Program-made: the position numbers and the translations under genes
DNA from: Macrophomina tecta
Lineage: Eukaryota; Ascomycota; Dothideomycetes; Botryosphaeriales; Botryosphaeriaceae
Direction: 5' to 3'
NCBI GenBank assembly: GCA_024180945.1
Contig: JAKSGN010000034.1
Location: 1-64,000 of the forward strand
Length of the DNA stretch: 64,000 nucleotides
Shown here: piece after piece, positions 18,878-26,026 of the stretch
How positions within the stretch are numbered: the first letter of the stretch is position 1
Layout of the letters: the number at the start of each line of letters is the position of its first letter
Notes under the pieces: model-generated
What the model saw: the letters and a program-made list of their open reading frames with translations, nothing else
Databases searched by the model: none
Told to the model about the DNA's origin: nothing

Positions 18878-18919
18878 CGGCAGTCCAGACGACCGCAATC
18901 CTTCACTAGCACTAATGGC

Positions 18920-21223
18920 TTGGAGGCGCTGCCGTTCACCATACCGGTAATCTTTCTGGACTCTACATGGCTCAAATGTCAGCATAGCTCGTTGCACCTC
19001 TTCATGGCCGTTGTCAAGGACGCAAACAACGAAACCTTACCTATCGCTTGGGGGTTATACCCGGGCGAAGATGACGTTAGCTGGGCATCCTTTTGCACCG
19101 ACTTAGCCAGGGCAGCAAGGTTTAATGAAGCTACTAGTAAGTATCTAGGCACCAGGAATTCTCCGTTAGCTCTAATAAATTTACTAGTAAATCGTCGGGA
19201 TTATACCAAATTTTCCGTTGTCTCTGATCGCAACGCTGCCCTTATTAAAGCCGTTAGAGACGTCCTCCACCTTCACCACTTCTACTGTATTAATCATATG
19301 GCTCGTAACGTTCATAAGAAGTTTAGCGCGTTAGCTGCAAAGCACTTTCGACGGGCTGCCTATGCAGCGAAGGAGGCGGCCTTTTCTCATCATATGAGGA
19401 GCCTTCGAGAGGTGAATAGCGACGCCGAAACTTACGTATCAAATATAACTCTCAGCCACTGGGCAAGGTGTGCGCAGCCAGCAGGCCTCCGGCGCTATAA
19501 CAATATGACGAATAATCCAGTGGAGTCGATGAATAAGCAGATTGATGATGCGCGTCATCAGCAGCCGCTCAAGGCACTAGAATGGATATATGACTTAGTA
19601 CAGGCGCGCTTCTTTAAGCGGCGTACGGCTGCACACCCTAACGCCTTTGGACTTACTACATACGCGGCGCGCAAGCTAGAGGAGCATACGGCTATTGCGC
19701 AGCAAATGAAAGCGACGCCCGCTAACGAGATTGACGGCTCCGGCAAGGTTATTGTGTCTCTAGATGAGGGAGAGGTTCACTATAAGGTGGCGTTAGCAGA
19801 CAACCGCTGTAACTGCATGGATTAGCTAAACGAAGGACTCCCTTGTAAACACGCCTACGCGCTGGCCTTGCGCATGAAGAGACGGCCTGAACACCTCTGG
19901 ATTAGCGATATATAAAAGCTTAAGACGCAGAGAGAGGCGTACCGACTATCGTTAAAGCCGCTAGAGCTGGATTACTTAGTGGAGGGTGAACTCTTGCCAC
20001 CAAATATTAGAAGCCGCTCCGGACGTCAGCAAACGAAGCGTAAGGAAGCGCCAAAAGAACCTACCAGGCCTATTAGGACGTACCGCTGCTCAATTTGCGG
20101 CTTCAGCGGTCATGGCAAGCTGCGCTACCGTCGGAATCCTAAGCCATTTAGGCCGTATATTAGTGGAGTAGGTGTTAATGAAGAAGCGGAGGCGGCCGTA
20201 ATACAAGCAGAGATAGCAGAGAGGCCAGGCAGCAGCCAAAATAGGCCTAGCAGCATCCATAATAAGCCTAGCGGGGGGACCGATAAGACTGATAAGACAC
20301 CTGGGCGAAAATATCAACCTCGTTGCGCACTTCCAAGCCTTAGCACCGTCAACGTACAATGCCATGAACCACCAAGCGACGGCTCCAGCTCACCCGGCGA
20401 TGTAAGCCCTATTGAAATCAGCCCCGAAAGCGACTCTAGCGACTCTAGTAGCTCTAGCGATGACGTTGTGCCGCCGTCAGCACTTGCGGAAACCAACACC
20501 CACCGTACTCCTCTACCAAGAACGCCCCTGGAGGACGTTCTAAGCCGTACATGGACTTCACCGCCACCCCGCATACCTTCTACACCTATACTAGGCTACA
20601 CAGGACCAATTGAATGGCCTGAGCTTGGCTCACCATCAGAAACAACATGGGGAGTAATGGCTAAGCGCGCCCGGGCTGTTCTTCAGAGCCTGGAGGTTGA
20701 GTTGAGTAAGGCGAAGGAGACGCTCTTTGCCGCCCAGCTAGCTAATCCGCAGGCCAATAAAACGGTGTGGCGCAAGGAGAGTGATGTGCGCTTCCTTAAG
20801 TCAAGGATTGAAACGCAAAGACGCCGTATTACCAACTTTGAATGCGAGGCTGAATTACAGCCTTATGAAGACCGTCATCTAGAGGTTATAAGGCGTGGGA
20901 GAGTAGTGCAACACCGCGATATGTACGAGCGACGGTGGCGGCCTCTTCTTAAATATCAACACCAGCAGGGCCAAGAGTACGTTATTCAGCAGCAGCAGCA
21001 GTGGGCCCGGTTACTCCTTCAATCGCCTTCTAATTCACCTCTCTCATCGGCACGTTCAATCGCAACTCCGTCGCCTCCACCACTGCTACTTACAATGCCA
21101 ATACGGCTTACTCGCAAGCGCCCGCTAGAGCTGCCTATTCGACTCTCGCCTCGCAAGCAACAACGTGTTAATAGCTACAACGAGGTTTATATGAGTAGGA
21201 AGCAATTGGGCTGGAGGCAATAG
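18920..21223 (+). pseudogene. Mutator-like (MULE) transposase, RIP-type stops
   Basis: One frame runs 768 codons and is broken only by TAG at 19823 and TAA at 19913. Both sit where Gln is expected and fit CAG to TAG and CAA to TAA. The core reads VIFLDSTWLKCQ...PIAWGLYPGEDD, then FSVVSDRNAALIKAV and HFYCINHMARNVHKKF, the MULE catalytic domain with its Asp residues. Next comes a SWIM-type zinc finger (CNCMD, stop, then NEGLPCKHAYAL) and a knuckle CSICGFSGHGKLRYRR, in which the third Cys position is Tyr (TGC to TAC, again RIP-like). A 330-residue Ser/Pro/Arg-rich tail follows. The N-terminus is missing. Confidence 0.85.
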
Positions 21224-22677: not shown

Positions 22678-23736
22678 TCACCATTCCAACTCTTTCCTGC
22701 TCCCACCACCGCTACAAACACTCTGCTGCTGCACACCCGATCTGCCCCAATCGTAAATACCACCTCGTTCAACAAACGACTTCTTGTCCCAAACAATCTG
22801 CTTCATAGCTTTCTTGACGCCGACTTCCAAAATCGACTCGCTCTTTGTCATCACACCAGCTCCTTTGTCCAGAAAACACATGTACTCGTCTAGAAGCAGG
22901 TAACTGCTCGCCATGGATTGGTTGTCCTCCGGAACATAGCACGGAATATGCTTATGCCGGTCACAGAACGTTCGCCATTGTTCATCGGCCACTAGGAAGG
23001 TCCTCGCGTCTCGCTTTCTCGTCTCGTCGTCGTTCTCGCCAGCGACGATGAGACACTGGAATACTTTCCATCGGAATGGTGCCAGCTGTTCAATATTGGC
23101 GACCATGTCTTCGTCCCAGTTGTGTGTGTTAACAACGGTATTCAACTTGAACTTAATTCCGTATTTCCTGCACCACTCCGCGATGCGAAACAGCCGAACC
23201 GCATTCTCTCCATCGTCGCCACGCCCAATTCTTTTATTCGTCTCCGGATTAAATGAGTCGCAAGACACTGCCAGAATATCCAGCCACTGACAATTTTCTC
23301 GCAACCACTTTTCCTTGATCTTGCTGCCGTTGCTCACGATGCTTGTACTCTCGACGCTTAGCTCCTCCTTGCAATAGCGGAGTAGTTCGGTGAGGAGATG
23401 AGGATAAAGGAAGGGTTCTCCGCCCGCGATGTTGAGCTTGCGCATGCCGGCCTCTTTTAGCAACCGCAGACCACGTTTCGCCTCATCGATAGGAAGGACG
23501 TAAGAAGAGGTGTCAGTGTGGAAACAGAAGCCGCATGTGTAGTTGCATTTTCGAGATGGGAAGTAGTTCACGGAAACTGGGGCGTCCGGTCCTTTTGATG
23601 GGTCCTCAGGTGGCTTGTTAATGGCGTTCACTCTAAAGTATCTCTTGATTCCGGTGGACGTGAAAACGGCGTATAGGATAGCAATGAAGAGACATAGGGC
23701 AGCCGGTACATTCGTCAGAAGAGCAATAATAGCCAT
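22678..23736 (-). CDS. viperin-like radical SAM enzyme (ddh-nucleotide synthase)
   Basis: An intact 352-residue frame begins at a true ATG and has no intron. Residues 1-28 are hydrophobic, suggesting a membrane-associated N-terminus. The radical SAM CxxxCxxC motif is C64-C68-C71 in SVNYFPSRKCNYTCGFCFH. NIAGGEP (102-108), SIVSNGS (132-138), LAVSCDSF (155-162), NTVVNTHNWDEDM and RWKVFQCL follow in the order and spacing of the viperin/RSAD2 family, which removes the 3' hydroxyl of CTP via a 4' radical to give ddhCTP. The frame ends in ELEW; a C-terminal Trp is conserved in eukaryotic viperins, where it is needed for cytosolic Fe-S insertion. Length is close to the 361 residues of human viperin. 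No RIP-type stop is present. It is transcribed away from the NMP kinase at 24102. Confidence 0.93.
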   Translation of the reverse strand: MAIIALLTNVPAALCLFIAILYAVFTSTGIKRYFRVNAINKPPEDPSKGPDAPVSVNYFPSRKCNYTCGFCFHTDTSSYVLPIDEAKRGLRLLKEAGMRKLNIAGGEPFLYPHLLTELLRYCKEELSVESTSIVSNGSKIKEKWLRENCQWLDILAVSCDSFNPETNKRIGRGDDGENAVRLFRIAEWCRKYGIKFKLNTVVNTHNWDEDMVANIEQLAPFRWKVFQCLIVAGENDDETRKRDARTFLVADEQWRTFCDRHKHIPCYVPEDNQSMASSYLLLDEYMCFLDKGAGVMTKSESILEVGVKKAMKQIVWDKKSFVERGGIYDWGRSGVQQQSVCSGGGSRKELEW

Positions 23737-24101
23737 GACCAGGTACGCTCCGATTATGCGTCGGTAAACAGCTTAACAATAGGTGTGAACTCGGTCTCTT
23801 CAGCAAGGGACGGAATGTGGGAAAGTTGGTGATCGCTACTGACGTGGCCACTTGGAAATGCTTGAAATTTGATTGGTTTTCATATCTGCACGTTCATGCG
23901 ATAACCTCGGACCGAATGCTAAATTTGGCGCTTGCGCTCCGCCATTCGTAGCGCGTGTCTAAAATAATATCGAACTTCTCCACTCATAGTGTTGCGATAA
24001 AGAGCTATCACAACTGTCTCACCTTCTTTTCCCTTGACACCACCCACGCCGAAACTACCGACTCTGTCTAAGTCATATTGACCTCACGGCCGACTAGCAC
24101 T
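23737..24101. promoter_or_regulatory. shared divergent promoter, viperin and NMP kinase
   Basis: Only 365 bp separate the two start codons, which face away from each other, so both promoters must lie here. An inverted CCAAT box (ATTGG at 23872-23876) is visible near the middle. No repeat or transposon end is recognised in the interval. Co-regulation of the pair is likely but not shown. Confidence 0.6.
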
Positions 24102-24916
24102 ATGGAAACTATACCTTCTGTCCCCACTCCCCGCAGCTTTGCGGTCATTTTCGTCCTTGGTGCGTGCCCTTAGACCTTCCAATTTGCCCTGACCCTGCGC
24201 CAATAAAGTTTCAGGAGCGCCTGCCGCCGGGAAAGGAACACTCTGCAGTCATCTCGCACAAACACACAACCTGACACACTACTCTGTCGGCGATAGCCTC
24301 CGCCGTTGGATGCGCGGCAACAATACCACATCACTCGCAGTTAAAATCCAAGACAAACTCGACAATCAGGGATTTCTTACTTCTGACGATTTGAATCCAT
24401 TTATTCGCCAGGCGGTCAAGGACGCTATCTACCAAGATGGACCGAAATCCCGAGGCATTCTAGTCGATGGATTCCCGCGATGCACAGAGCAACTAGAATC
24501 CTTCAACACATGGCCGTTCCAGGACGAATTGCCACTTGCTCCGAACAGTGACGGTGGGGTGAGCGCGAATGCAAAACCGGACATTGTGCTATCTTTAAAG
24601 GTTACCATGCAAAATGCGAAAGCGAGATATCTAGCCCGAGCGCGGGATAGCAATGACAGCAATGAGAAGTTTGAGAGGCGTTTTGCCGAATATGAGTTAG
24701 AGACTATGGCGGTTGAAGAAGTGTATCGGCAACATGGCATTTTGATCGATGTAGGTATTGAACAATCTATCTGAAATGAGACACTGACGGATGTAGGTTG
24801 ATGCAAATGGAACAAAGGAAGAGAACATCAATGAGTTAACAAAGAAGCTTGAAGAAAGTGTGCTCTGGCGGAAGATTATCGTTGAAGGAAGTTTGGGAGC
24901 GCATTTTCTCTTGTGA
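24102..24916 (+). CDS. nucleoside monophosphate kinase, UMP-CMP kinase-like
   Basis: The model is join(24102..24159,24215..24750,24797..24916), 237 residues. Intron 1 (55 nt) splits the first Gly codon of the P-loop and intron 2 is 46 nt; both phases are exact. The protein shows the adenylate/UMP-CMP kinase fold: P-loop GAPAAGKGT (20-28), GDSLRRW (45-51) at the NMP site, ILVDGFPRCTEQ (101-112) and a short lid (about 157-175, RYLARARDSNDSNEKFERRF) that, like UMP-CMP kinases, lacks the long zinc-type lid of adenylate kinases. It ends after a helical tail (NELTKKLEESVLWRK). An acidic insertion near 123-138 is unusual. Its place directly opposite viperin suggests supply or phosphorylation of cytidine nucleotides for ddhCTP formation. 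Substrate preference is inferred. Confidence 0.88.
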
Positions 24917-25537: not shown

Positions 25538-26026
25538 TGTTACGACGCAGCCTTCACAGGAAGGATAAGAAAAGAGAAAGGACGGGACACGGCGATCGCA
25601 GGGTCCGAACCTTTCAATCACGTGAGGCACATGGCCCGGATAGCCAAACCAAGGCCGCTATCTTTGGATAGCGGCCACGACTCCGCTACCCACATATAGC
25701 GAGACACTACCAGCTATCCTCAGATAGCAGACCCTACCTCGCTATCCACTAGATTGTATGAACTTTCCTCACGGATATAACTGTGCCCCGGATTAGCGCA
25801 AAGACCCGATCAGTTACTTATCTGCTCGATTAGTAACTGATCGGGTCTTTACGCTAATCCGGGACACATAACGAGCCTTTCGCACATCGTGCACCGACTT
25901 ATCACGTGATACTGCTCCTTATCCAATCACTGCCGCCCCTCCTCTTCGCTTCAAGGTGAACCCTTCGACAACCGTCAGCCTACCTGGCGACTCCGAAACC
26001 AGGTAGAAGAAGGCACGGTCGTTCCA
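25538..26026 (+). mobile_element. solo LTR, diverged copy with internal palindrome
   Basis: It starts TGTTACGACGCAGCCTTCAC and ends GGCACGGTCGTTCCA, matching the 482-bp LTR at 31199-31680 (TGTTACGGCGCAGCCTTCAC to CCGCTCGTTACA) at both ends and in the stretch CTCAAGG-AACCC-TCGACA near the 3' side. The final TTACA is changed to TTCCA. The middle 100 bp, where the other copy carries a TATA-like TATATAAACC, is replaced by the palindrome listed separately. An apparent minus-strand protein frame at 25919-26131 is simply this LTR read backwards. Confidence 0.65.
25782..25868. repeat. near-perfect foldback, 37-bp arms
   Basis: The left arm (25782-25818) begins TGTGCCCCGGATTAGCG and the right arm (25832-25868) is its inverted copy. 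There are only two mismatches, both C/T, and a 13-nt loop. It lies inside the diverged LTR at 25538-26026. It may be a small foldback insertion or a palindrome specific to this LTR subfamily. Confidence 0.85.

Follow-up and report, generated by a model that had tools for sequence, protein, structure and literature searches.

A viperin gene and a divergent short-lid kinase gene in Macrophomina tecta: a conserved two-gene module in fungi

Introduction

In vertebrates, the gene for the radical S-adenosylmethionine (SAM) enzyme viperin, RSAD2, is paired with CMPK2, a kinase of the thymidylate-kinase family. Prokaryotic viperins (pVips) are represented in PADLOC by several models, including one described as associated with kinases and one as a viperin-kinase fusion. 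Here, we describe a viperin gene and a divergently oriented nucleoside monophosphate (NMP) kinase gene of the fungus Macrophomina tecta (Dothideomycetes; Botryosphaeriaceae), found in the first 64,000 nucleotides of contig JAKSGN010000034.1, here C28, of assembly GCA_024180945.1 (54.1 Mb, 37 contigs). This whole stretch is referred to as the window. The linkage of the two genes is a conserved fungal two-gene module and not a product of chance. Viperin-kinase pairs are known from animals and bacteria, and according to PMC11249213 the products of eukaryotic viperins are confined to CTP or UTP derivatives.

Two viperin-like enzymes (VLEs) of the fungus Trichoderma virens are represented by structures: VLE1 (6b4c, 7n7i, and 9dgw) and a "second" VLE (9dfn, with the F40H variant 9dfu). 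A T. virens enzyme uses UTP. TtRSAD2 of Thielavia terrestris, likewise a fungal viperin, is reported to convert CTP and UTP (PMC9642334). The word "kinase" is absent from the text of that paper and from the main text of a survey of eukaryotic viperins (PMC10732462). Among the papers listed by literature searches, none was recognised as describing a fungal viperin-kinase pair, although an earlier description may exist. Set beside the known fungal viperins and the animal and bacterial pairs, the present locus is a fungal form of the pairing that uses a kinase of another family. Unlike CMPK2, the fungal partner belongs to the ADK family (PF00406), and because the kinase families differ, the fungal association looks independent of the animal one.

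Fungal antiviral immunity beyond RNA interference is poorly known. A kinase partner with a lineage of its own offers a direct route to the nucleotide used by the fungal viperin and to the reason why a viperin needs a kinase. After animal CMPK2 and the kinases of prokaryotes, this would be a third, apparently independent pairing, which would speak for a functional requirement and not for a relic.

The Viperin Gene and Protein

The viperin (RSAD2/SAND family) coding sequence occupies positions 22678..23736 of the minus strand and encodes 352 residues in a single intron-free exon without an internal stop. The original prediction of an intact viperin with the family's landmarks holds: the [4Fe-4S]/SAM motif CNYTCGFC lies at residues 64-71 (23524..23547, minus strand), NIAGGEP at 102, SNG at 135, CDSF at 159, and KELEW at the C-terminus. 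The protein carries the radical SAM CxxxCxxC together with GGEP (G105-P108) and the viperin fold, including the C-terminal nucleotide-binding part, and passes the curated model NF038283 with 246.6 bits (cut-off 180). The three cysteines C64, C68, and C71 are present in 51 of 51 rows of the viperin alignment (A1) and in 110 of the 120 listed viperin relatives, the remainder being seven gaps and three other residues. With TIGR04278 ("antiviral radical SAM protein viperin"), which is narrower, the protein scores 392.1 bits, under the cut-off of 450, so it is not filed there; this model is perhaps tuned to animal proteins. A scan of viral_contigs with the same alignment returned 22 pattern matches, none of which was confirmed as a viral relative.

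A hydrophobic N-terminal helix at residues 10-33 (23638..23709, minus strand), seen in the AlphaFold2 model and in a hydropathy profile reaching 2.52 in a 19-residue window, is a probable membrane anchor. The alignment and the titles of 9dfn and 9dfu draw attention to F59-P60-S61 (23554..23562, minus strand), within NYFPSRKCN, where T. virens VLE1 and the viperins on contigs C12 and C21 of this genome have NYHF(S/T). The tree places both T. virens VLEs with the C12 type, and a branch with 100/99 support separates them from the window clade, so the phenylalanine may have arisen twice; the branches are long and this placement is unsure. D283 and E284 are invariant in the 51 aligned rows, while the next residue, 285, is Tyr, Arg, His, Asp, Asn, Lys, Glu, Phe, or Cys among the 120 listed relatives and is possibly a specificity or diversifying site.

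The Kinase Gene and Protein

The start codons of the two genes are separated by 365 bp (23737..24101), the distance originally predicted. This shared 5' region is presumed to be a bidirectional promoter through which both genes would be co-expressed. The NMP kinase gene (24102..24916, plus strand) is not one open reading frame (ORF). By our splice reading, exon 1 (24102..24159) is followed by a 55-bp intron (24160..24214, GTGCGT..TTTCAG, phase 1) within a glycine codon of the P-loop, and the P-loop GAPAAGKGT is formed only once this intron is removed. Exon 2 (24215..24750) holds the rest of the P-loop, DGFPRCTEQ (24466-24492), and the short lid RYLARARDSNDSNEKFERRFAEYE (24625-24696). A second intron of 46 bp (24751..24796, GTAGGT..ATGTAG, phase 0) precedes exon 3 (24797..24916), which includes the stop codon and is supported by aligned C-termini. 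The intact kinase with its P-loop, DGFPR, and short lid, as first proposed, is therefore recovered after splicing; the product of 237 residues aligns with its relatives over the full length, including the C-terminus created by removal of intron 2. Read by eye, intron 1 has a counterpart of equal phase at the corresponding codon of the C12-type kinase.

The kinase passes PF00406 with 72.9 bits (cut-off 26.8) and shows the marks of the ADK superfamily, namely the P-loop, DGFPR, and the lid arginines. Across 35 aligned kinase rows, R108, R157, R161, and R163 are invariant and R175 is nearly so. All 21 NCBIfam models listed for the protein stay under their cut-offs, including any for adenylate kinase; TIGR01359, the UMP-CMP kinase model, gives 81.6 bits against 207.6. 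There is no Thymidylate_kin match at E 0.01; that of the C12-type kinase, with 17.5 bits, falls short of the cut-off of 27. The window viperin resembles pVips in matching three of their models, including "associated with kinases" and "viperin-kinase fusion", whereas its kinase matches no PADLOC family.

In the tree, these kinases stand together in a clade of their own (100/97) that excludes the housekeeping URA6, ADK1, ADK2, CMPK1, and AK1, so that they fall with neither the adenylate nor the uridylate kinases of housekeeping. The short-lid NMP kinase fold is shared with yeast URA6, CMPK1, and AK1, but the best structural matches, found with a model of the relative P0121, reach only 26-28% identity. 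Apparently intact URA6, ADK1, and ADK2 genes (exons joined by eye) are also present in this genome. The partner is a lineage of ADK-superfamily short-lid NMP kinases, separate from the housekeeping enzymes.

The position after DGFPR that we take to be the reader of the nucleotide base is Gln112 in the window kinase and Gln in 35 of 35 aligned sequences. Gln is also found there in yeast URA6 and in AK1; CMPK1 (DGFPRNQDN) and the Dictyostelium UMP-CMP kinase have Asn. With this URA6-like Gln, a UMP/UTP route is no less likely than a CMP/CTP route. The original name "UMP-CMP kinase" and the supply of cytidine nucleotides attached to it thus find no support in that form, given the unreached NCBIfam cut-offs and Gln in place of Asn.

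Conserved Linkage in This Genome and in Other Fungi

Viperin sequences are found at six places in this genome: in the window (C28), on C20, on C12, at two places on C21, and, broken, on C1. A divergent kinase match stands beside the viperin at all six, including the degraded C1 place. The six fall into three sequence lineages, namely C28/C20, C12 with both copies on C21 (in DNA blocks of 98-99% identity), and C1. The C20 viperin is identical to that of the window over 352 of 352 residues, and the C12 and C21 viperins have 55-56% identity to it. On C12, the two start codons are 181 bp apart.

Searches outside this genome found 1573 viperin and 134 kinase relatives, of which 120 each were listed. 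Contigs were matched by size, not by sequence, for the 119 viperin clusters and 119 listed kinases that had a size, and 41 of the 119 clusters have a contig of exactly the same size as a listed kinase relative, compared with 1 of 119 in a weak control with housekeeping URA6. Of these 41 contigs, 8 are under 12 kb and 16 under 100 kb. Among the matches listed, 13 locus-tag series are common to both lists and 11 of them are consecutive by eye: those of Monosporascus ibericus, Monosporascus sp. CRB-8-3 and 5C6A, Daldinia eschscholtzii, Diplodia seriata, Diatrype stigma, Fusarium poae, F. sambucinum, Fusarium FIESC RH6, Arthrobotrys conoides, and Orbilia oligospora. The names of the carriers cover Sordariomycetes, Dothideomycetes, and Orbiliomycetes, class assignments that are presumed for all but Macrophomina and Monosporascus. 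Arthrobotrys has an additional kinase on a separate contig. The two-gene module first proposed from a single locus is therefore borne out by six of six divergent pairs here and by the consecutive tags elsewhere, and its conservation points to a fungal defence or nucleotide-analogue module.

Proposed Mechanism and Alternative Explanations

The locus probably encodes a two-enzyme nucleotide-analogue module, in which viperin makes a 3'-deoxy-3',4'-didehydro (ddh) nucleoside triphosphate (NTP) and the kinase is dedicated to it. Viperin would be held by its N-terminal helix at a membrane, the probable location, and would use [4Fe-4S]/SAM radical chemistry to convert a pyrimidine NTP (CTP and/or UTP) to the corresponding ddhNTP. 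The ddhNTP would then end RNA synthesis by viral or retroelement polymerases. The kinase may raise the local level of nucleoside diphosphate, hence of NTP, or may re-phosphorylate ddh-NMP freed by exonucleases. The intact genes, their family membership, the conserved linkage, and the separate kinase lineage are observed; the reaction is inferred from the family, and the nucleotide used, the membrane location, the co-expression, and the antiviral purpose are also inferences.

Several observations weigh against this interpretation. Gln112 speaks against a CMPK1-like CMP kinase, and among the PADLOC models the viperin scores highest with "not associated with kinases" (227.7 bits), ahead of "associated" (207.3 bits). 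The Tyr at 285 of DEYM is missing in 44 of the 120 listed viperin relatives, so some of these may act on another substrate. The six pairs in this genome count as only three lineages because of the genome's own 98-99% duplications, and gene orientation was read in this genome only. In the other fungi, 78 of the 119 listed viperin clusters have no size-matched kinase among the matches listed, and a shared contig is no proof of adjacency in the 25 of 41 cases in which it exceeds 100 kb, the matching itself resting on size. Two of the 13 tag series are non-consecutive, those of Diaporthe batatas (far apart) and Fusarium oxysporum LZL87 (seven tags apart). The URA6 control, made with 118 rows, is weak because these come from a partly different species set.

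A second type of locus bears on a different explanation. The C12 block (C12:293079-298168; L026/L027) comprises a viperin, an NMP kinase, a thiamine-triphosphatase-like ORF (PDB matches with E about 1e-8), an AAA_28 NTPase (82.4 bits), and an OTT_1508-like deaminase (73.3 bits). The triphosphatase-like ORF and the NTPase lie downstream of the kinase on its strand, and the deaminase lies on the other side of the viperin. Both enzymes downstream of the kinase recur at the two C21 copies, which as duplicates are not independent evidence, and the triphosphatase-like protein was found in this genome at these three places only. A CYTH Pfam search of the genome gave no matches, a limit of sensitivity, because the C12 ORF matches solved thiamine triphosphatases. 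With both enzymes present at all three C12-type copies, the pair and its larger C12 version could be read as a pathway for a secreted ddh-nucleoside directed against microbes or viruses, in which the kinase, the triphosphatase, and the AAA_28 enzyme tune the phosphorylation state and provide self-protection. Occurrence is uneven and multi-copy, as is usual for accessory clusters, and a fungal enzyme has been hypothesised to make antiviral natural products, according to PMC9642334. We nevertheless regard this pathway as rather unlikely. On C28 and C20 there is no match to the triphosphatase or to AAA_28, and Pfam recognised no exporter or regulator in the frames scanned, 20 of the 30 long ones of the window, which were unspliced, so that intron-bearing genes may escape. 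The probable membrane anchor suits an intracellular role.

The kinase might instead act mainly in salvage, re-phosphorylating ddh-NMP or mending a side effect of viperin, and not in the normal supply of NTP. The removal of the ddhC nucleotide from RNA by a viral exonuclease, reported in PMC9415739, speaks for such an enzyme. The diverged short-lid kinase keeps to its own clade even though URA6, ADK1, and ADK2 could supply normal nucleotides. Against this, the CMPK2 that neighbours viperin in vertebrates is generally taken to serve nucleotide supply, and we consider a mainly salvaging kinase to be unlikely.

Two further explanations are very improbable. The adjacency of an ordinary kinase as a by-product of segmental duplication or transposon hitch-hiking would suit the hAT and MULE remnants in the duplicated 15.3 kb around the pair, and the triplication of the C12 type, but is disfavoured by the same partners in three diverged lineages here, the consecutive tags in several other genera, and the separate kinase clade. 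A selfish or allorecognition element, made of an analogue maker and a carrier-protecting kinase, would account for multiple copies, duplication in repeat-rich DNA, and trees at odds with taxonomy, yet no such element with these enzymes is known to us, and the product of viperin is an RNA chain terminator in the known cases.

Trees and Possible Horizontal Spread

The window viperin is 88.0% identical to that of Monosporascus ibericus (Sordariomycetes), 84.3% to that of Macrophomina MS6, and 81.0% to that of Diplodia seriata, which we take to be of the same family as M. tecta. URA6 of this genome is 100% identical over 216 residues to that of Macrophomina phaseolina MS6, 94% to that of Botryosphaeria dothidea, and 87% to that of D. 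seriata; no Sordariomycete was recognised by name among the best 120 URA6 rows, many of which are unnamed. In MS6 (P0007 and P0186), viperin thus has only 84% identity to that of the window despite identical URA6, so very close Macrophomina strains differ greatly in the pair.

In approximately unbiased (AU) tests, a single Sordariomycete clade is rejected in both the viperin tree (p-AU 0.00035; 25 of 52 rows) and the kinase tree (p-AU 0.0045; 13 of 44 rows), with p-values that are optimistic because the groups were picked after the first trees. With Colletotrichum and Diaporthe removed, such a clade is not rejected at 0.05 (p-AU 0.0551 for viperin and 0.0678 for the kinase). Nine rows were dropped for the viperin test (five unnamed or contaminant, two long, and two near-duplicates) and four for the kinase test. 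Neither tree rejects a Botryosphaeriales clade (4 rows; p-AU 0.252 and 0.384), and therefore they do not demonstrate transfer into or out of this order.

Viperin and kinase distances are correlated (Mantel r 0.61, reached in 0 of 5000 shuffles; 33 external pairs and the window), and some correlation would be expected from shared ancestry alone. Eight of the 41 size-matched viperins were left out of this comparison by choice (P0019, P0026, P0048, P0055, P0063, P0069, P0084, and P0105), two of them for non-adjacent tags. The rejected clades and the identities fit, without proving, a joint horizontal spread of the pair; ancient paralogy with loss is a possible alternative. Transport by Starship elements is not supported. 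DUF3435 (PF11917), which we take as the marker of Starship captains, has 43 matches in the genome, none of them on C28, C20, C12, or C1, where a captain may lie beyond the contig end or have been lost. The single match on C21, at 635 kb, is more than 400 kb from either viperin.

It is tentatively conceivable, at clearly less than even chance, that fungi built a viperin-kinase immune unit independently, with another kinase family than animals, in at least two ancient types, which moves between classes as a unit and has a kinase specialised for ddh-NMP or UMP. The triphosphatase and AAA_28 enzyme of the second type would complete a cycle of making, recharging, and clearing the analogue, and variation at viperin residues 59 and 285 would mark a diversified nucleotide product.

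The Duplicated Segment and Its Neighbourhood

The whole pair lies in a segment common to C28 and C20 (10790..26070), a block of 15.3 kb with 99.3-99.5% identity that also contains the hAT and MULE remnants. In its last 5.7 kb, where the pair sits, the copies differ at nine positions. Two of these lie in kinase coding sequence, one of them silent and the other a replacement (S12N); two more are in kinase intron 2, one is silent in viperin, one is intergenic, and three are outside.

The original prediction had set an undamaged pair against surrounding transposons riddled with stops of the repeat-induced point mutation (RIP) kind. The indices of the pair are indeed normal (TpA/ApT 0.66 and 0.53). 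The contrast holds only in part, as RIP marks are no more than mild in the 4-kb bins of the window (TpA/ApT 0.65-1.13, with 1.01-1.38 for the second index), and the copy that is clearly RIP-like is that on C1 (TpA/ApT 1.52, second index 0.62). Relative to the window, the C1 copy has changed most often by C>T (150) and G>A (164), with CA (62/150) and TG (79/164) as the most frequent contexts. Near this decayed pair lies an HD-domain-like ORF (C1:19858-20619; L032) that is cyanamide-hydratase-like by eye only.

The C20 copy carries an extra insert of 11.7 kb (C20:126329-138044, at window position 18918), which splits the MULE-like stretch; by eye, its ends are short inverted sequences (CACGC..GCGTG). 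In the MULE-like stretch, the sites at which C28 and C20 differ cluster at window positions 19076-20275; nearly all are G/A, with mostly G in C28 at first and then mostly A in C28, as if RIP-like change had been combined with gene conversion. An inverted repeat at 25782-25868 has 41-nt arms that are 93% complementary around a 5-nt spacer, and part of it matches elsewhere in the genome, for example at C2:3370275.
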